A stretch of 47,263 nucleotides of DNA, from positions 1 to 47,263 of the forward strand of contig SVKQ01000016.1 in the NCBI GenBank assembly GCA_015068325.1, in the 5' to 3' direction. The position numbers were made by a program, and so were the translations under genes. Numbering within the stretch: position 1 is the stretch's first letter; each line of letters opens with the position of its first letter. The notes under the pieces are model-generated. The model saw only the letters and a list, made by a program, of their open reading frames with translations, did not search any database and was not told the DNA's origin. Origin of the DNA: Oscillospiraceae bacterium. Its GTDB lineage: Bacteria; Bacillota; Clostridia; Oscillospirales; Oscillospiraceae. Positions 8,449-22,044 of the stretch are shown piece by piece.

Positions 8449-10152
8449 ATGAAGTTTTCTGATATGCCCTATGCGCGCCCGGACGCTGAGGCGGTCAAGG
8501 CACAGCTGGCGGCACTGACGGAGAGATTGAAGAACGCCGCTTCCTATGAGGAGGCTCGCGCCGTCTTTCTGGAGAAGGAGGAGGACCAGCGGCATGTCAA
8601 CACCATGGGCACGCTGGCCAGTATCCGACACTCCATCGACACCCGCGATGCGTTTTACGACGACGAGATCAAGTTCTGGAACGCTTTCGGCCCCGAGCTG
8701 CAGGAGTATACCCAGGCCTGGACGGCGGCCATGCTGTCCAGCCCCTACCGGGCCGACTTTGCCGCCGAATACGGCGACCTCATGTTTATCAATGCAGAGA
8801 TCGAGTTGAAGACCTTCTCGCCGGAGATCATTCCGGAGCTGCAGAAGGAGAACGACCTGACCCAGGAGTATGAAAAGCTCCTGGCCTCGGCCCAGATCCC
8901 TTTTGAGGGCAAGACCTATACGCTGTCCCAGTTGACACCGCTGAAGTCCTGTGACGACGATGTGCGCCGCCTGGCCGCCTGGAAGGCCGAGGGGCAGTGG
9001 TACAAGGATAACCAGCCCCGGCTGGATGCCATCTATGACGAGCTGGTCCATCTGCGCGACACCATGGGAAAAAAGCTGGGTTATGAGGGCTATACGACCC
9101 TTGGCTATTACCGCATGGGCCGCAACTGCTATACCAAGGAGGACGTGGAACGGTTCCGCGCCGCCGTGCAGAAATATCTGGTGCCCGTGGCGGAGGATAT
9201 CTGCCGCGAGCAGGCTCGCAGATTGGGCAAGGAATACCCCCTGAGCTTTGCCGACGCGGCACTGAAGTTCCGCAGCGGAAATCCCCGCCCGGTGGGCACG
9301 CCCGACGATATCCTGGCCCAGGGTCGGAAGTTCTATGACGAGCTGTCCCCTGAGACGAGCCGTTTCTTCCGCGCCATGCTGGAGGGGGAGATGCTGGATG
9401 TTCTGTCCACCGAGGGCAAGCAGTCCGGCGGCTACTGCACCGAGCTGCCCGATTACAGGATGCCCTTCATCTTCGCCAACTTCAACGGCACACAGGGTGA
9501 CGTGGAGGTGGTGACCCATGAGGCCGGTCACGCCTTTGCCTCCTGGATGAACATCGACCGCATCCCCGGCGAATATGTGTGGCCCAGCATGGAGGCCTGC
9601 GAGGTCCACTCCATGAGCATGGAGTTCTTCGCCTGGCCCTGGGCCGGCGGCTTCTTCGGTGCCGATGAGCGCAAATTCCTCTACAGCCACTTGGCCGACA
9701 ACGTCACCTTTATCCCCTACGGCACCATGGTGGATCATTTCCAGCACATCGTCTATGAGCAGCCGGATCTGACGCCCGCCCAGCGCCATGCCGAGTGGAA
9801 GCGTCTGCTGGGCATCTACATGCCTTGGATGAAGCTGGACGGCGACATCCCCTTCTACAGCGAGGGCGAGGGCTGGCAGCGCCAGCACCACATCTACTCC
9901 AGCCCCTTCTACTATATCGACTACTGCCTGGCACAGACCGTGGCACTGGAGTTCTGGGCCATGATCCAGACTGACCGGGCCGACGCCTGGGACCACTACA
10001 TGGCCTATACCCGCCAGGGCGGCAGCCGCACCTTTACTGAGCTGCTGCAGAACGCCGGGTTGGACAGCCCCTTTGAGGAGAGCTGCCTGCGGGGCGTGTG
10101 TGCCGCGGCCCGCCGTTGGCTGGCGGATTTTGACCTGACCGGCATCGAATAA
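8449..10152 (+). CDS. M3 family oligoendopeptidase
   Basis: 567-residue zinc metallopeptidase of the M3 (thimet oligopeptidase/PepF) family; it cuts short peptides in the cytoplasm. The zinc motif is HEAGH (357-361), with the third ligand in the segment EACEVHSMSMEFF (about 383-395). Family signatures FNGTQGDVEVVTHE and the late YIDYCLAQTVALEFWAM are clear. Length is normal (about 560). The ATG at 8449 follows AAGGAG by 12 bases. Four bases behind it starts a small membrane-protein gene, and then a peptide ABC importer, so imported peptides may be its substrates (inference from context). Confidence 0.93.
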   Translation: MKFSDMPYARPDAEAVKAQLAALTERLKNAASYEEARAVFLEKEEDQRHVNTMGTLASIRHSIDTRDAFYDDEIKFWNAFGPELQEYTQAWTAAMLSSPYRADFAAEYGDLMFINAEIELKTFSPEIIPELQKENDLTQEYEKLLASAQIPFEGKTYTLSQLTPLKSCDDDVRRLAAWKAEGQWYKDNQPRLDAIYDELVHLRDTMGKKLGYEGYTTLGYYRMGRNCYTKEDVERFRAAVQKYLVPVAEDICREQARRLGKEYPLSFADAALKFRSGNPRPVGTPDDILAQGRKFYDELSPETSRFFRAMLEGEMLDVLSTEGKQSGGYCTELPDYRMPFIFANFNGTQGDVEVVTHEAGHAFASWMNIDRIPGEYVWPSMEACEVHSMSMEFFAWPWAGGFFGADERKFLYSHLADNVTFIPYGTMVDHFQHIVYEQPDLTPAQRHAEWKRLLGIYMPWMKLDGDIPFYSEGEGWQRQHHIYSSPFYYIDYCLAQTVALEFWAMIQTDRADAWDHYMAYTRQGGSRTFTELLQNAGLDSPFEESCLRGVCAAARRWLADFDLTGIE

Positions 10153-10155
10153 GAC

Positions 10156-10734
10156 ATGGCTGACAGAAAACGCGGAGGCCGCCGCGACTATCTGAACGAT
10201 TTCCACATGGATCTCAGCGGCCAGTATGTCTATACCGGCGCGCTGTACCGCTATGCGGGCACCCTGCCGCGCCGGAAAGCCATGCTGCGCACAGGTCTCA
10301 TGGCCGCCGCCATGGCCGTCTTCACGGTGGTGGCCGGCTGTCTGGATGCTCCCGCCATGTTCGGCACCGCCTATGTGCTCCTGCCCTATCTGGGCCAGGT
10401 CATCGCGGCGGCACTCTCTGTCTGGGCTGCAGGGCAGCTCATCGTCAGCGGAAAGGAGCTGCGCGCCTACGTCTACCGCGCCACGGTGGAAAAGCTGCCC
10501 CGGCGGCTGCGGGTGACAGCCGTCTTTGCGGCAGTCGGCATCCTGGGCAACGTGGTCTACCTGTGCCTCTACGGCTTCGGCGGCAAGGTGCTCCCGTCGC
10601 TGGCCGTGCTGGTGCTCCACGCACTGACAGGCGTGGCGGCGGAGCTGCTCCGCCGCTTCTTCCTGACGCTCCGCTGGGACAGCGGCTCCGAGGAGCTGCC
10701 GTCGGCAGGGGAGGGGCGGGATCCCAATTCGTGA
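10156..10734 (+). CDS. four-helix integral membrane protein of unknown function
   Basis: 192-residue protein. A basic cytoplasmic start (MADRKRGGRRDYLNDFHMDL) is followed by about four hydrophobic segments near residues 49-66, 73-97, 118-136 and 143-162, then an acidic soluble tail (SEELPSAGEGRDP). The segment LSGQYVYTGALYRYAGTLPRR between start and first helix is polar and Tyr-rich. I recognise no family. It lies 3 bases behind the M3 peptidase stop, so the two are co-transcribed. Whether the transcript runs on into the ABC importer 67 bases further is open; no terminator is visible between them. Confidence 0.75.
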   Translation: MADRKRGGRRDYLNDFHMDLSGQYVYTGALYRYAGTLPRRKAMLRTGLMAAAMAVFTVVAGCLDAPAMFGTAYVLLPYLGQVIAAALSVWAAGQLIVSGKELRAYVYRATVEKLPRRLRVTAVFAAVGILGNVVYLCLYGFGGKVLPSLAVLVLHALTGVAAELLRRFFLTLRWDSGSEELPSAGEGRDPNS

Positions 10735-10801: not shown

Positions 10802-13123
10802 ATGAAAAAAGCAAAGAGAATCCTTGCACTTCTCCTCGCTCTCGTCATGGCTCTTGCTCTGGTCGCTTGCGGCGGGAACAGCAACAACGAGACTCCCGAC
10901 ACAAACACCGACAACCAGCAGGAAGAGAACACTGACAACAACGAGAATACCGAGCCCGAGGTGAAGACGTTGGTCGTGGGTTATTCCCCGTTCAACGAAA
11001 AGTTCTCCCCCTTCTTCTCTGAGACCGCTTACGATCAGGACGTTTGGGCCATGACGGCCGTCGGCCTGCTCCCCACGGATCGTCAGGGCGCTGTTCTGCT
11101 GAACTCCGCCAAGGGTGAGACTGTCAACTACAACGGCACTGACTACACCTACAATGGCATCGCTGACTGCGTGATCGAAGAGCAGGCTGACGGCACCGTC
11201 ACCTACGACTTCACCCTGCGCGATGACATCAAGTTCTCCGACGGTGAGTCCCTGACCGTGGACGACGTCATCTTCAGCATGTACGTCCTGTCCGATCCTA
11301 CTTACGACGGCAACAGCTCCTTCTTCGCTGTTCCCATCGTGGGCATGGACGAGTACCGTTCCGGTATGGACACCCTGAAGAACCTGCTGTTCAAGGCCGG
11401 CCGCGACAACGCCGACTTCTCCTTCTGGACCGAGGAAGATCAGAAGGGCTTCTGGGAGAAGTATGACGCCGCCACCACTGGTCTGGCGCAGGAGATCGTG
11501 GACTACTGCATGGCTAACTACGCCGAGGCTGGTGCTGTGGACGTCGCCTCCTCTGCCGCTCTGTGGGGCTTCGGCCTGGCTGAGGGCGCTGAGATCGCCG
11601 ACTTCGCCGCCGCTCTGGAGAAGGCCTATGGCGCCGACATCGCCGGCATGATCAACACCGAGGCTGCCGGCTCCACCGTGGACGATCTGTTCCCCGGCCT
11701 GAGCGACTACGGCACTGCCATCACCTATGGTGAGACCGCTGCCAACATCAGCGGCATCGAGAAGACCGGCGACAACACCCTGCGCGTCACCCTGAGCAAG
11801 GTGGATGCCACCGCCATCTATCAGCTGGCCATCACTGTCGCCCCCCTGCACTACTATGGCGATACCTCCAAGTTCGACTACGAGAACAACAAGTTCGGCT
11901 TTGACAAGGGCGATCTGAGCACCGTCCGTGCCAAGACCACCGTGCCTCTGGGCGCCGGCCCCTACAAGTTCAACAAGTACGAGAACGGCGTCGTGTACTT
12001 CGAGGCCAACGAGTACTACTACGATGGTGTGCCCAAGACCAAGTTCGTCAACTTCCAGCAGTGCATGAGCGATGACGACAAGCTGAACGGCGTTGTCACC
12101 GGCACCATCGACATCACCGATCCTTCCTACAGCTCCAAGAACGCTGAGGCCATTGCCCAGGCCAACGGCGGCTCCGGCGTGACCGGCTCCGTCATCACCA
12201 CCAACACCGTGGACAACCTGGGTTACGGTTACCTGGGCATCAGCGCCAAGGCCGTTAACGTGGGCGGCGATGCCGGCAGCGACGCTTCCAAGAACCTGCG
12301 TAAGGCGTTCGCCACCATGTTCTCCGTCTATCGTGAGCTGACCGTCGAGTCCTACTACGGCGATCGCGCCAGCGTCATCAACTACCCCATCTCCAACACC
12401 TCCTGGGCTGCCCCCCAGACCACCGATGACGGCTACAAGGTCGCCTTCTCCGTGGACGTCGAGGGCAACGACATCTACACCTCCGACATGAGCGCTGACG
12501 ACAAGTACGCCGCCGCTCTGGAGGCCGCTCTGGGCTTCTTTGAGGCTGCCGGCTACACCGTCACGGACGGCAAGCTGACCGCTGCTCCCGCGGGCGCTTC
12601 CCTGGAGTATGAGATCCTGATCCCCGCCGACGGTACTGGTGACCACCCCTCCTTCATGATGGCCACTGAGGCCTCTGCCGCTCTGGAGACCATCGGCATG
12701 AAGCTGATCGTCACCGACCTGTCCGACAGCTCCGTGCTGTGGGATAGCATCGAGGCCGACCAGGCCGACATGTGGTGCGCTGCCTGGGGCGCCACTCCCG
12801 ATCCTGATATGTATCAGATCTACTACAGCGGCGTTGCTGACGGCGCTCAGCCCGGCGGCTCCAACTACATGTACGACATCGCCGATGCCGAACTGGACAA
12901 GATGATCCTGGATGCTCGTGCTTCCTTCGACACGGCCTATCGTAAGACCATGTACAAGGCCTGCCTGGACACCATCGTTGACTGGGCCGTTGAGGTTCCC
13001 GTCTATCAGCGTCTGAACGCCATCATCTTCTCCACCGAGCGTGTGAACATGGACACCGTGACTCCCGACATCACCACCTACTATGGCTGGATGAGCGAGA
13101 TCCAGAACATCGAGCTCAACTGA
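10802..13123 (+). CDS. peptide ABC transporter substrate-binding lipoprotein with large insertion
   Basis: 773-residue extracytoplasmic solute-binding protein of family 5 (OppA/DppA). A signal peptide ends in the lipobox ALVAC (C23), followed by an Asn/Glu/Thr-rich tether. Family features: the start VVGYSPFNEKFSPFFSE, YDFTLRDDIKFSDGESLTVDDVIFS, the GAGPYKF segment, and late DMWCAAWGATPDPD. At 773 residues it is 200 longer than usual. Much of the excess is a helical, Ala/Glu-rich segment at about residues 165-315, between SDPTYDG and ISGIEKTGDNTLRV, where a normal member has about 35 residues. Codons are biased towards abundant-protein usage. AAGGAGG precedes the ATG. First gene of the importer operon. 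Confidence 0.92.
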   Translation: MKKAKRILALLLALVMALALVACGGNSNNETPDTNTDNQQEENTDNNENTEPEVKTLVVGYSPFNEKFSPFFSETAYDQDVWAMTAVGLLPTDRQGAVLLNSAKGETVNYNGTDYTYNGIADCVIEEQADGTVTYDFTLRDDIKFSDGESLTVDDVIFSMYVLSDPTYDGNSSFFAVPIVGMDEYRSGMDTLKNLLFKAGRDNADFSFWTEEDQKGFWEKYDAATTGLAQEIVDYCMANYAEAGAVDVASSAALWGFGLAEGAEIADFAAALEKAYGADIAGMINTEAAGSTVDDLFPGLSDYGTAITYGETAANISGIEKTGDNTLRVTLSKVDATAIYQLAITVAPLHYYGDTSKFDYENNKFGFDKGDLSTVRAKTTVPLGAGPYKFNKYENGVVYFEANEYYYDGVPKTKFVNFQQCMSDDDKLNGVVTGTIDITDPSYSSKNAEAIAQANGGSGVTGSVITTNTVDNLGYGYLGISAKAVNVGGDAGSDASKNLRKAFATMFSVYRELTVESYYGDRASVINYPISNTSWAAPQTTDDGYKVAFSVDVEGNDIYTSDMSADDKYAAALEAALGFFEAAGYTVTDGKLTAAPAGASLEYEILIPADGTGDHPSFMMATEASAALETIGMKLIVTDLSDSSVLWDSIEADQADMWCAAWGATPDPDMYQIYYSGVADGAQPGGSNYMYDIADAELDKMILDARASFDTAYRKTMYKACLDTIVDWAVEVPVYQRLNAIIFSTERVNMDTVTPDITTYYGWMSEIQNIELN

Positions 13124-13311: not shown

Positions 13312-14298
13312 TTGCGAAAATACATTTTGAAGCGCATCCTGATATCCATCGTCATTCTGTTTTTCGTGGCGTTTATCATCTATACGCTGATGCGCTGCCT
13401 GCCTACGTCCTACATAGAGCGTATGGCCCGGCAAAAATCCATGCAGCCCAACTCCAAGAGCTATGAGGAGTGGATGGAGCAACTGTCCGCCATGTATAAC
13501 ATGGATAAGGGCATCGTAGTCGGTTTCTTCACCTGGCTGGGCAACTTCTTCCGCGGCGAGTTCGGAGACAGCTGGTTCTTCACCGTGCCGGTGATCGACA
13601 AGTTCAACGAGGTGGTCTGGCTGTCCTTCGTCATGGGACTGATCTCCTTCGCACTGGAGATCGTCATCGCTGTGCCGCTGGGCATTGTCGCCGCCACCAA
13701 GCAGTACAGTAAAACGGACTACACCATATCCGTGATCGCGTTGGCAGGTATTTCGTTGCCGCCATTCTTCTTCGCATCGTTGCTGAAGCTGGTCTTCAGC
13801 GTGAAGTTGCGCTGGTTCGATCTGATCGGTCTGGTGGGACGCAACTATGCCCAACTCGATGCCTGGGGCCAGTTCTGGGATAAGGCTCACCATCTGGTCC
13901 TGCCCATCGTCACGCTGGTCGTCATCAGCGTCGGTTCCCTGATGCGTTATACTCGTACCAATATGCTGGAGGTCCTCAATGCGGATTATATCCGTACGGC
14001 GCGCGCCAAGGGCCTCAGTGAGCGCAAGGTCATCTATCACCACGCGTTCCGCAACACACTGATCCCCCTGGTCACCATCATCGGCGGTTCGCTGCCCGGT
14101 CTGTTCTCCGGCGCCTTGATCACCGAGACGCTGTATGCCATCCCCGGCATCGGCTATACGTCCTATCAGGCCATGGTCCAGGGCGACATCCCGTTCTCCA
14201 TGTTCTATCTGGTGTTCATGGCGATCCTGACACTGGCCGGCAACCTGATCGCCGACATTCTGTACGCCGTGGTCGATCCGCGGGTACGCATCGCGTAA
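13312..14298 (+). CDS. peptide ABC transporter permease (DppB/OppB type)
   Basis: 328-residue inner-membrane subunit of the peptide importer. It begins with the typical MRKYILKRILISIVILFF helix and has about six membrane segments. The cytoplasmic EAA loop that meets the ATPases is ADYIRTARAKGLSERKVIYHHAFRNTLIP (about 223-251). The end DILYAVVDPRVRI is characteristic of DppB-type permeases. The start is a TTG at 13312, supported by CGGAGGGA 7 bases upstream and by the conserved first helix; no ATG fits. Normal length. It is separated from the binding-protein gene by two hairpins and followed by the second permease after 18 bases. Confidence 0.94.
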   Translation: MRKYILKRILISIVILFFVAFIIYTLMRCLPTSYIERMARQKSMQPNSKSYEEWMEQLSAMYNMDKGIVVGFFTWLGNFFRGEFGDSWFFTVPVIDKFNEVVWLSFVMGLISFALEIVIAVPLGIVAATKQYSKTDYTISVIALAGISLPPFFFASLLKLVFSVKLRWFDLIGLVGRNYAQLDAWGQFWDKAHHLVLPIVTLVVISVGSLMRYTRTNMLEVLNADYIRTARAKGLSERKVIYHHAFRNTLIPLVTIIGGSLPGLFSGALITETLYAIPGIGYTSYQAMVQGDIPFSMFYLVFMAILTLAGNLIADILYAVVDPRVRIA

Positions 14299-14316: not shown

Positions 14317-16089
14317 GTGGACGAAAAGAAAACCAACACCGCGCCCCAGGGCGAGGAGCAGCAGTATTCCCTGAGCGATGACCGCCGTGTCAAGGTCCTT
14401 TCCCCCGGCATGCTGGTCATGAAGCGCTTCATCCGCAACCGCCTGGCGGTCACCGGACTGAGCATTCTGGTCTTCATGTTCGTGTTCTCCTTCATCGGAG
14501 GACTGGTGTCTCCCTACGGACAGGACGAGTTCTTCTACCGCGACGAGCCTATCAGCCGTGAGTTCGCCGCCGTCGTGGAAAACAGCGAGTTCCGTTATGC
14601 CGCCAACGACAGCAGCAAGTTCAGCTCCGCCGTGCAGGCGCAGGTGATGCTGGCGATCCAGAAGAACAGCACCGCATTCACCTATCACGATGTCGCCTAT
14701 GAGATGACCAGGGAGGGCGACGACTTCTACAGCGTCACCTCTGACGGCGCCTTGGTGGGCATCGCCTATAAGGATATCGTCACCTCCTCCGACGGCAAGA
14801 CCAAGCTGAGCTTCGACCTGATTTACGGCGCCCTCAAGACCTATCTGGGCGTAGAGGAGCATGCCGAGCCGACAGAGCCGACTGAACCCGCAGCGCCTAC
14901 CGAGCCGACTGAACCTGCAGAGCCGACAGAGCCTGCCGAGCCCGTTGAGCCGACTGAACCTGCAGAGCCGGCAGCGCGGTCCGGCGAGTTCGAAGCCGAC
15001 GGCGTCACCTATGAGGTGGACGAGAACGGCAACGTCCTGCAAAACGGCAGTGAAGTCGCCTATATCACCCGCTATGTGGTGCAGGCTGTCATGCCAGACG
15101 TGACCCTCTCCCGTGACTTCAAGGAGCGCCTGATCGAGGCCATCCAGAATGGCCAGACCGAGTTCTCTTACACCGACGCATCCCTGATCGTGGAGGAAGA
15201 TGAGGCTGCCGAGTCTGCGGAGGGCGAGGGCAGCGGCATCGAAACAGACGATGAGAGTACACCGGAGGGTACCACCCCCGTCAGCGCTACCGCTGAGTAC
15301 ACCATCACCCACGACCCGCTCCATCACAACTGGTCCGTCCGCCAGGAGCAGGTCTCCCGCCAGTATGACAGCTATTCCCAGCCCAACAGCAAGCATTGGC
15401 TGGGCACCGACAAGTACGGCATGGATATGCTGACCCGCCTGATGTATGGCGGCCGCGTGTCTCTGCTGATCGGCTTCATCGTCGTCATCATCGAGACGGT
15501 GATCGGCGTCATCTTCGGTGGTATCTCCGGTTATTTCGGCGGTTGGGTGGACAACCTGATCATGCGTATCGTGGATATCTTCTACTGCATCCCCTCCATG
15601 CCCATCATCATCATCCTGGGTGCGGCCATGGATGCCCAGCGCGTGGATCCCACCATCCGAATGGTATACCTGATGCTGATCCTGGGCTTCCTGGGCTGGG
15701 CCGGTATCGCTCGTCTGGTCCGCGGTCAGATCCTCTCTCTGCGTGAGCAGGAGTATATGACCGCCACAGAGGCCTGCGGCATCAGCGTCTCCCACCGCAT
15801 CTTCCGCCACCTGATCCCCAACGTGATCCCGCAGTTGATCGTCAACTGCACCATGGGTCTGGGCTCCGTCATCATCATGGAGGCCACGCTGTCCTTCCTG
15901 GGTCTGGGCGTCAAGTTTCCCTTCGCATCCTGGGGCAACATCATCAACGACGTCAACAACACCCACGTGCTGACAAACTACTGGTTCATCTGGATCCCCG
16001 CCGGCACCCTGCTGCTGCTCACCGTTCTGGCCTTTAACCTGGTGGGCGACGGACTGCGCGACGCGTTCGATCCCAAGATGAAGCGCTGA
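14317..16089 (+). CDS. peptide ABC transporter permease (DppC/OppC type) with about 270-residue insertion
   Basis: 590-residue permease; ordinary members have about 300. A cytoplasmic N-terminus and TM1 (about 47-67) are followed by a large soluble region (about 70-340) facing outwards, after which the usual core resumes at HWLGTDKYGMDML (about 361-373) with four to five further helices and the EAA loop TEACGISVSHRIFRHLIPN. The insertion has a first domain (about 80-180), a Pro-Thr-Glu repeat linker (184-221) and a second domain (about 222-340) with an acidic Ser/Glu stretch. Short segments of the two domains resemble each other. Start is GTG at 14317 after GGGAAGGGGG. The reading frame is unbroken, so this is not an assembly fusion of two genes. 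Confidence 0.92.
   Translation: MDEKKTNTAPQGEEQQYSLSDDRRVKVLSPGMLVMKRFIRNRLAVTGLSILVFMFVFSFIGGLVSPYGQDEFFYRDEPISREFAAVVENSEFRYAANDSSKFSSAVQAQVMLAIQKNSTAFTYHDVAYEMTREGDDFYSVTSDGALVGIAYKDIVTSSDGKTKLSFDLIYGALKTYLGVEEHAEPTEPTEPAAPTEPTEPAEPTEPAEPVEPTEPAEPAARSGEFEADGVTYEVDENGNVLQNGSEVAYITRYVVQAVMPDVTLSRDFKERLIEAIQNGQTEFSYTDASLIVEEDEAAESAEGEGSGIETDDESTPEGTTPVSATAEYTITHDPLHHNWSVRQEQVSRQYDSYSQPNSKHWLGTDKYGMDMLTRLMYGGRVSLLIGFIVVIIETVIGVIFGGISGYFGGWVDNLIMRIVDIFYCIPSMPIIIILGAAMDAQRVDPTIRMVYLMLILGFLGWAGIARLVRGQILSLREQEYMTATEACGISVSHRIFRHLIPNVIPQLIVNCTMGLGSVIIMEATLSFLGLGVKFPFASWGNIINDVNNTHVLTNYWFIWIPAGTLLLLTVLAFNLVGDGLRDAFDPKMKR
14866..14976 (+). repeat. in-frame Pro-Thr-Glu repeat in the permease insertion
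   Basis: About 110 bases of imperfect tandem repeats built from GAGCCGACT/GAACCTGCA units, translating to repeats of TEP and AEP. The longer unit GAGCCGACTGAACCTGCAGA occurs twice. Such repeats make stiff, extended linkers and can vary in number by slippage. Confidence 0.85.
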
Positions 16090-16103: not shown

Positions 16104-17258
16104 ATGGCTAAGAAAAACAACGACGGATATCTGTCTGCGAAGGAGTCCCGCCGGATCTCCAGAGAAAACCGCAAGATTACCAACCAGCTGGAGAAGAAAT
16201 ACAAGCGCAAGAACGTGCCAGAGAGCGAGTACCTCACCCAGATGCATGACCCGGCCAATGCGCTGGAGATCGAGAATCTCCACACTTTCTTCTTCAGCGA
16301 TGTGGGTACTGTCCACGCAGTGGACGGCATCACCTTCGACGTGCCCACCGGCAAGACCGTGGGCGTGGTGGGTGAGTCCGGCTGCGGCAAGTCTGTGACC
16401 AGCCTGTCCATCATGCAGCTGCTGCAGCGGCCCCAAGGCCAGATCGTGGAGGGCGAGATCCGCCTGAACTTGGGCAACGGCAAGGCCTATGACATCGCCA
16501 GGACCCCCATCGAGCAGATGCAGCACCTGCGCGGCAACTTCATCTCCATGATCTTCCAAGAGCCCATGACCAGCTTGAATCCGGTGTTCCGTATCGGCGC
16601 CCAGGTGGACGAGGTCATCGCCCTGCACGACGGCTCCGGCATGTCCGCAGCGGAAATCAAGCAGCGCACCATCAAGCTGCTGGAGATGGCTGGCATCGCC
16701 AACAGCGAGGGCGTCTATATGATGTTTCCCCATGAGCTCTCCGGCGGTATGCGCCAGCGCGTCATGATCGCCATGGCGCTGTCCTGCAACCCCAAGCTGA
16801 TCATCGCCGATGAGCCCACCACGGCGCTGGACGTGACCATCCAGGCCCAGATTCTGGACCTGCTGCGCAACCTGAAGGACCAGATCAACTCCTCCATCAT
16901 GCTGATCACCCATGACCTGGGCGTGATCGCGGAGATGGCGGACTACGTGGTGGTCATGTATGCCGGCCGCATCGTGGAGAAGGGCACCGCGGAGGAGATC
17001 TTTGCCCACCCCGCCCACCCCTATACCATCGGCCTGATGGCCTCCAAACCCGTGGTCGGCAAGCGGGTGGACAAGCTCTATTCCATCCCCGGCAAGGTGC
17101 CCAATCCCATCAACATGCCGAACTACTGCTACTTCAAGGACCGCTGTGAGATGTGCGTGGAGGGCTGCGACGGCGCCTATCCCTATGAGGTACACCTGTC
17201 TCCCACCCACACGGTCACTTGCTATCGCTACTATAACGAAGGAAAGGTGGGTGAATAA
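16104..17258 (+). CDS. peptide ABC transporter ATPase (DppD/OppD type)
   Basis: 384-residue ATPase of the importer. Walker A is GESGCGKS (90-97), Q-loop in [12 protein letters not shown], signature LSGGMRQR, Walker [13 protein letters not shown] and the H-loop LITHDLGV. The C-terminal oligopeptide-transporter domain has a cysteine cluster ([14 protein letters not shown]) of the kind that binds an Fe-S cluster or zinc in OppD/DppD. The N-terminus carries about 50 extra residues, rich in Lys/Arg/Glu ([20 protein letters not shown]), before the usual start [17 protein letters not shown] precedes the ATG. It starts 14 bases after the second permease. Confidence 0.95.
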
Positions 17259-21198: not shown

Positions 21199-22044
21199 TT
21201 GGCAATCTTCACCAATCAAGCGATGCTCTCCTACAACGGGAGGTCCATTCACTCCAATGTTACCACCGGGGAGATACTGGAGGTGGTCGCCGTCTACAAG
21301 ACAGCCGTATCCGCCGGTTATGAGCCCGGCGGCCGGGTGACCTACGCCGTCAGCCTGGTCAACTCCGGCGACATCGCCGTCTCCGGCTTCACCGTCAGCG
21401 ACGACCTGGGCGGTTACACCTTTGACGGCGATACGCTCTATCCGCTGTCCTATGTGGAGGGCAGCCTGGTCTGCCTGGTCAACGGCGTGAGGGAGACGGT
21501 ACCCGCCGTGACGGCCGGCCCGCCGATGACCGTTAGCGGCATCGACCTGCCCGCCGGCGGCAGCGCTGTGCTGATCTACGAGGCGCAGGCCACAGCCTAT
21601 GCGCCGTTGGGCATTGATGCGGAGATCAGCAACACCGTAACGGCTGCGGGCACCGGCATTGCCGCGCCGCTGACGGCCACGGCCGCAGTGAGTGCGGATA
21701 TGGCGCCGCGGCTCTCTATCACCAAATCCGTCAGCCCCGATACGGTGGTGGGCAATTCGGAGCTCACCTATACCTTTTTGATCCAGAACACCGGCGACGA
21801 GGCCGGCGCAGACGCCGGTGTGGCAATCACCGACACATTTGACCCGGTGCTGGAGAACCTGATGGTGCTGCTCAACGGCACACCGATGAGCAGCACAGGT
21901 TACACCTATGACGGGAGCACCGGCGTCTTTGCCACCGACAGCGGCGCGATAATCGTGCCGGCGGCCGTCTTTGCCCAGAACTCCGACGGCACCTGGATGA
22001 CTACGCCTGGCGTCGCAGAGTTGACGGTCAGCGGCACCATCTGA
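21199..22044 (+). CDS. DUF11 domain-containing protein without signal peptide
   Basis: 281-residue beta-rich protein. It begins MAIFTNQAMLSYNGRSIHSN with no signal peptide, then two DUF11-like repeats of the surface-protein type: VTYAVSLVNSGDIAVSGFTV (about 46-65) and LTYTFLIQNTGDEAGADAGV (about 189-208), each followed by a VSDDLGGYTFDGDT or ITDTFDPVLENL segment. Similar stand-alone proteins are common in Clostridia; their role is not known to me. Lack of an export signal suggests release on lysis, an unknown route, or a place on the spore surface after mother-cell lysis (inference). The start is TTG at 21199, 8 bases after a perfect AGGAGG. Single-gene unit. Confidence 0.8.
   Translation: MAIFTNQAMLSYNGRSIHSNVTTGEILEVVAVYKTAVSAGYEPGGRVTYAVSLVNSGDIAVSGFTVSDDLGGYTFDGDTLYPLSYVEGSLVCLVNGVRETVPAVTAGPPMTVSGIDLPAGGSAVLIYEAQATAYAPLGIDAEISNTVTAAGTGIAAPLTATAAVSADMAPRLSITKSVSPDTVVGNSELTYTFLIQNTGDEAGADAGVAITDTFDPVLENLMVLLNGTPMSSTGYTYDGSTGVFATDSGAIIVPAAVFAQNSDGTWMTTPGVAELTVSGTI

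Follow-up and report, generated by a model that had tools for sequence, protein, structure and literature searches.

Peptide importers constitute a main nitrogen intake of many Firmicutes. The closest described counterpart of the permease reported here is AmiC of the pneumococcal Ami permease, which we take to be an OppB-type subunit. According to the passages of the source dealing with this protein, AmiC contains 498 residues versus 308 in AmiD, and its residues 31-278 are predicted by AF-Multimer to form two extracellular domains, of which one sits as a wedge between the binding protein's lobes and the other serves as a platform for lobe 1 (PMC11192437). A looser parallel can be found in MalF of the E. 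coli maltose importer, whose large periplasmic P2 loop is described, in the part of the source concerned with it, as moving around MalE (PMC8134467). Within the available sections of a genome-wide prediction of B. subtilis ABC transporters, extracellular domains are discussed for exporters, and Opp, App, and Dpp are merely tabulated. Among the papers listed by our literature searches, none dealt with an OppC insert or an RCC1 permease. The solved OppC/DppC subunits of E. coli and M. tuberculosis (8z21, 8z1w, 8j5s, 8wd9) are 287-302 aa in length and possess a short TM1-TM2 loop with no insert.

The DNA examined in the current study (the window) is a stretch of 47,263 nucleotides from an Oscillospiraceae bacterium. 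It encodes an OppC permease of 590 residues, as opposed to the usual ~300, and the DppC-type assignment proposed in an earlier sequence-only reading was confirmed by the open reading frame together with OppC_N (residues 29-74; 41.2 bits vs. a curated cut-off of 23.9) and BPD_transp_1 (residues 397-590; 104.9 bits vs. 26.4). The NCBIfam model Opp4C (NF045476) scored 341.6 bits, which is below its equivalog cut-off of 350. The two best solved OppC chains cover permease residues 31-71/73 and 355/356-587/588, and the protein has the six-helix fold of solved OppC/DppC. An SBP_bac_5 lipoprotein, OppB, OppD, and OppF are encoded in the same operon. We identify the permease as OppC of a type I ABC importer for oligopeptides. 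The source genome encodes three other permeases of OppC type, whose open frames measure 310, 316, and 272 aa, so the large form coexists with ordinary ones. The genes of the locus are as follows:

8449..10152, + strand: M3-family peptidase, 567 aa, an upstream neighbour recurring among relatives
10802..13123, + strand: substrate-binding lipoprotein, SBP_bac_5, 773 aa
11363..11749, + strand: helical insert within the binding protein, ~129 aa (residues 188-316, boundaries drawn by hand)
13312..14298, + strand: OppB-type permease, 328 aa, ordinary length (Pfam/NCBIfam)
14317..16089, + strand: OppC/DppC-type permease, 590 aa (ORF, Pfam/NCBIfam, AF2 model)
16104..17258, + strand: OppD-type ATPase, 384 aa
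17261..18289, + strand: OppF-type ATPase, 342 aa

Upstream of the importer, positions 8449-10734 hold the M3 peptidase gene and a gene for a small membrane protein that has no Pfam match. Elsewhere in the window, an ORF at 21199-22044 contains DUF11-type repeats and possibly encodes a surface protein.

The sequence-only reading had also located a surplus of about 270 residues between TM1 and the HWLGTD segment, on the outer face of an otherwise complete permease. Alignment, hydropathy, and the AF2 model all support the presence of TM1, the HWLGTD segment, and the EAA loop, while the surplus amounts to 289 residues (68-356), placed outside by both topology and AF2. In the hydropathy profile, TM1 and the TM2-6 region are visible and residues 72-340 contain no membrane segment. 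AF2 block pLDDT values are 91-97 across residues 61-180 and 86-96 across residues 221-290; the model thus predicts with high confidence that the insert is outside of the membrane and mostly folded. A cytoplasmic location is ruled out by the AF2 model and the hydropathy topology. The permease can be divided into the following parts:

14440..14508, + strand: TM1, residues 42-64 (AF2 helix 42-64; hydropathy peak 43-61)
14518..15384, + strand: extracytoplasmic insert, residues 68-356, 289 aa, from TM1 to the HWLGTD segment (topology, hydropathy, AF2)
14608..14802, + strand: module 1, residues 98-162, in which five strands come after helix 104-115 (AF2; module HMM 102-158, E 2.4e-22)
14803..15102, + strand: module 2, residues 163-262, split by the PTEP linker (AF2; module HMM 216-258, E 1.6e-13)
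14857..14979, + strand: PTEP/PAEP-repeat linker, residues 181-221 (AF2 block pLDDT 55-66, low confidence)
15103..15372, + strand: module 3, residues 263-352, a weaker repeat that returns to the membrane (AF2; module HMM 264-308, E 3.1e-8)
15193..15285, + strand: acidic loop, residues 293-323, lineage-specific, low confidence
15388..16086, + strand: conserved core (HWLGTD segment, TM2-6, EAA-type loop), residues 358-590

Like AmiC, as far as that protein is characterized in the passages cited above, the window permease has a large folded outer portion following its first transmembrane helix. The likeness between the insert and ECD1/ECD2 of AmiC is one of description only, and the enlarged subunit differs as well, being OppB-type in Ami, whereas here OppB has its 328 aa and the insert resides in OppC. 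P2 of MalF lies in a different loop from the window insert, and the two permeases belong to different importer families. From what the MalF source relates, MalF resembles the window protein in being a permease subunit with a large extracytoplasmic loop.

The insert is a tandem repeat of alpha+beta modules. Alignment recognizes three or four of them, and the longest examples read by eye as having five. Profiles of modules 1 and 2 aligned over 59 columns (E 2.2e-8, probability 94%), and that of module 3 fell weakly into the same register, at E values of 0.0017 and 0.0095 with probabilities of 6% and 2%. When 159 permeases were searched with an iterated HMM built from modules 1 and 2, 101 of them showed 2-4 copies and the other 58 showed none; these 58 comprise ordinary, intermediate, and RCC1-type permeases. 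Inserts of 272-286 residues contain an additional module between modules 1 and 2 (13 of 39 rows), while relatives of 677-718 aa appear by eye to contain five modules, for which the HMM scores only 2-4. We aligned 74 permeases, namely the window and 73 of 80 loci from a scan of named records; these loci were the best matches to the window and hence are a chosen set. The insert is present in 74/74, ranging from 201 to 289 residues with a median of 215, and that of the window is the longest, its length being raised by the PTEP-repeat linker and the acidic loop. The linker columns are occupied in 8% of the 74. The linker is encoded by nine-base-based DNA tandem repeats (14866-14974), and a 1215-aa open frame at another place in the genome matches this same stretch. 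The net charge of the insert is -40 in the window and has a median of -20 across the 74. Sequence drift is fast, with a mean pairwise p-distance of 0.64 in the insert vs. 0.25 in the core and a mean top-residue frequency of 0.48-0.49 in the shared insert vs. 0.84 in the core. The 19 insert positions conserved in at least 85% of the sequences are of fold-core types (F, Y, A, G, S/T), except for N89 and R93. Accordingly, they do not form an enzyme-like cluster.

In domain searches of the kind recommended in the sequence-only reading, the insert matched no known domain family above cut-off. The window insert had no match above cut-off in Pfam (best Bflower, E 0.004) or NCBIfam (best E 0.11), nor did the insert profile have one in the PDB (best E 0.055). 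Among 39 aligned inserts, a subset of the 74, five Pfam families were encountered, each limited to one member (lowest E 0.00037, for Lsr2), which rules out another Pfam family as the identity of the insert, and RCC1 matched neither the window protein nor any of the 39. When the whole model was used, the listed matches of the fold search were filled by the transmembrane core, and in a viral structure library no match reached E 0.001. Profile searching of the source genome found the insert at one place only, at E values up to 1. An occurrence of the insert outside of permeases was likewise rejected, as all insert-containing frames in a sample of the class (538-659 aa) hold the OppC core.

When examining the distribution of the insert, complete OppC frames of 509-625 aa were found in 77 of the 80 named-record loci, these being the best 80 of 586 relatives. 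As the same layout recurs in 77 frames of this chosen set, a gene fusion, frameshift, or start-site artefact can be rejected. Record titles of the carriers, mostly metagenome bins, include Oscillospiraceae, Lachnospiraceae, Mogibacterium, Christensenellaceae, Erysipelotrichaceae, and Atopobiaceae, and among the strains with a large OppC are Pseudoflavonifractor capillosus An386a and Catenibacillus scindens DSM 106146. Of 150 genomes from the same family as the window, 41 gave a match at 1e-60. A survey for DppC homologs above 500 residues had been advised, and among the 42 distinct open frames listed for these genomes, 36 contain at least 500 aa, 7 of which are RCC1-type. The earlier assertion that no peptide importer carries a folded domain at this position consequently fails, both on these numbers and on the AmiC precedent, which is a predicted equivalent according to the passages cited and also supplies the best functional model. 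In the phylum (398 genomes), the best 150 matches listed consist of 15 frames of at least 500 aa, 13 of 350-499 aa, and 122 shorter ones, while in the class (245 genomes) the insert is found in 14 genomes, its own included, always in one frame with the OppC core. Overall, a homologous insert characterizes one group of Opp-type operons from Clostridia and their kin. Three loci in records titled actinobacterium or Atopobiaceae (L113, L121, and L124) carry the same module-type permease, suggesting either a transfer to Actinomycetota or mis-binned contigs.

The most surprising by-product of these comparisons was an unexpected group of 17 OppC permeases of 602-646 aa (L059-L065, L181-L185, and L187-L191; for example, L059:3995-5806, - strand) in which RCC1 repeats occupy the TM1-TM2 loop, i.e. 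the same loop of the same subunit as in the window. RCC1-type repeats are a common interaction scaffold. RCC1_2 scored above cut-off in 17/17 (E 2e-16 to 5e-44), the best stretches being situated between OppC_N and BPD_transp_1, and WD40_RLD, a model of the full RCC1-like domain, matched all 17 (E 4e-28 to 9e-52), three of them above cut-off. Binding protein, OppB, and OppC are encoded in the same order in 16 of the 17 operons, with no binding protein called in L183, but the RCC1-type insert shows no similarity to the modules and the binding proteins are without a helical insert (16/16). A relationship between the two insert types was rejected, as neither the insert profile nor the module profile finds anything in the RCC1-type permeases. 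In a first tree of the permease core, which included 41 of the 101 module-type rows, support for the module-type group was 36% because L066, which has no modules, falls beside it. This 360-residue OppC (L066:4001-5080, - strand) has a modest loop and may be a pre-insert form, a reduced form, or a long-branch effect. After the removal of 20 module rows and of eight rows on long branches, including L066, a second tree recovered the module-type and RCC1-type permeases as one group each (100/100). The best trees place ordinary permeases between these groups, and an AU test did not reject a single joint clade of the two (p-AU 0.297). Since the two kinds of insert have unrelated sequences, their presence requires at least a replacement or a pair of insertions; it is these unrelated sequences, not the tree, that indicate a separate origin for the two insert types.

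Another distinctive characteristic of the module-type operons is found in the binding lipoprotein, which contains a helical insert of ~129 aa with no Pfam match above cut-off. Excluding the window, this helical insert is present in 78 of 79 operons with a module-type permease, and it is absent from all 49 others (0/26 ordinary, 0/16 RCC1-type, and 0/7 intermediate). The count required a binding-protein frame of at least 600 aa for module-type operons, with comparison operons taken at any length; L090, L097, and L113 are outside of the 79 due to broken or short binding-protein frames, L128 was entered by hand after an overlong OppC start defeated automatic pairing, and the 78 positive rows include near-duplicates, 73 being distinct. 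The absence of the helical insert from ordinary operons is supported by the total lengths of their binding proteins (526-679 aa, median 562). The lone exception, L128, retains the permease insert, and its binding protein is cleanly without the helical insert. Binding-protein inserts measure 135-179 residues in four-module operons (median 143, n=9) vs. 125-136 in three-module operons (median 129, n=45). They are not clearly longer in five-module operons (125-153 in 5) by our column method, which can undercount, since it may drop residues fitting no reference column; L050 was settled by pairwise alignment. Given that module-type permeases form one group, both the co-occurrence and the four-module length difference may reflect shared ancestry.

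We also compared rates of divergence by partial Mantel tests, which are too lenient on related sequences and were applied here in 38 comparisons. Across the 65 of 74 operons with both OppD and OppF called, the distance of the permease insert tracks that of the binding-protein lobes (r 0.28, p 0.002) with OppC core, OppB, OppD, and OppF controlled, and an identical result (r 0.28, p 0.002) was obtained for a 32-operon subset with the M3 peptidase as an added control. OppB tracks the lobes as well (r 0.34 in the 65 operons and 0.40 in the subset), whereas the OppC core, OppD, OppF, and M3 do not (r -0.14 to -0.04; M3 -0.12). The insert additionally tracks OppB (r 0.22, p 0.001) and, weakly, OppD (r 0.11, p 0.046; subset r 0.21, p 0.006). 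These correlations are suggestive of a lipoprotein-facing surface that would be formed by the insert and OppB. Between the permease insert and the binding-protein insert, there was no tracking when OppB, OppD, and OppF were controlled (r -0.06, p 0.82, and 0.04), and a weak correlation over 74 operons when the controls were OppC core and OppB alone (r 0.13, p 0.019) or these plus the lobes (r 0.11, p 0.043). The two inserts may bind each other, with the four-module lengths and the r values of 0.11-0.13 in favor and L128 and the r values near 0 against.

Based upon these features, the best reading of the permease insert is a docking platform for its own binding lipoprotein, a role that we consider somewhat probable, though it is not proven. 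That the insert may receive the lipoprotein was one proposal of the sequence-only reading, and it has gained support from the co-occurrence and lobe tracking. The analysis establishes the insert along with its outward position, predicted fold, repeats, family, and co-occurrence with a binding-protein insert; contact with the lipoprotein and every functional step are inferred. The TM1-TM2 outer loop of OppC would have expanded into a folded domain of tandem alpha+beta modules, which would contact the lobes of the enlarged lipoprotein. Together with OppB, it would keep the binding protein and its load positioned above the channel, as the extracellular domains of AmiC are proposed to do. Peptides would then enter, and the cytosolic M3 peptidase, whose gene lies upstream, could cleave them. 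Docking is favored by the outward fold, the co-occurrence, the four-module lengths, the lobe tracking, the lack of an enzyme-like cluster, and the AmiC precedent. It is weakened by L128, the lack of tracking of the binding-protein insert, the possible role of ancestry, the tracking of OppD and OppB, and the RCC1-type operons, which combine a big permease insert with binding proteins devoid of a helical insert.

Several of the same observations could be explained otherwise. An acidic repeat insert might keep wall polymers away from the channel mouth or set the reach of the binding protein, with the number of modules tuning its length. The varying number of modules (three and four in alignments, five by visual count in the longest), the negative charge, the low-confidence PTEP linker, and the fast drift would all suit such a spacer, as would the longer binding-protein inserts of four-module operons, which a reach-setting pair might show. 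However, a passive spacer does not predict that the insert should track the lobes when none of OppC core, OppD, OppF, and M3 does so, and five-module operons lack clearly longer binding-protein inserts, within the limits of a method prone to undercounting. We regard a spacer as unlikely; as for the earlier suggestion that the cell wall is held at a distance, variation in module number and acidity speak for it and nothing else came to its side. Alternatively, the insert might organize a peptide-uptake patch by binding a third partner, for example some other envelope protein, a wall polymer, or a protease at the surface, and the existence of a second OppC group with RCC1-type repeats in the same loop is in keeping with this. 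Yet neither of the two neighbors surveyed is constant, the M3 peptidase and the small membrane protein each occurring in 28 of the 50 relative loci with enough upstream sequence, and such a partner seems quite improbable.

The outer position, the repeat surface, and the M3 peptidase beside the operon in many relatives could similarly be taken to indicate that the insert itself binds or pre-sorts peptides ahead of the binding protein or channel. This we judge very improbable, as there is no conserved binding-site cluster beyond fold-core positions, N89 and R93 apart, and no above-cut-off match to a known binding domain; the pre-sorting idea of the sequence-only reading gained nothing from the analysis. 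Lastly, the contrast in p-distance between insert and core might be expected of an expanded loop that is simply tolerated and has no role, but a neutral insertion is scarcely credible for a domain that is kept in every one of the 74 aligned permeases, with conserved fold-core positions and high model confidence.

What differs from known importers is that the insert is located in the OppC rather than the OppB half, is built of repeats, and is widespread in Clostridia. It is conceivable, although doubtful, that the TM1-TM2 loop of OppC serves as a reusable port, which Clostridia have fitted with different domains (an alpha+beta repeat of 3-5 modules or an RCC1 beta-propeller), each paired with a binding lipoprotein of corresponding form, thereby giving private docking surfaces that prevent the sharing of binding proteins. 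The findings raise the question of how one channel selects its own binding lipoprotein among several. As the outer loop can be short, contain three or more modules, or carry an RCC1 propeller, with ordinary paralogs in the same genome, deletion and swapping tests are possible. If the docking reading is true, either half of the permease can grow a platform, OppB in streptococci and OppC here.
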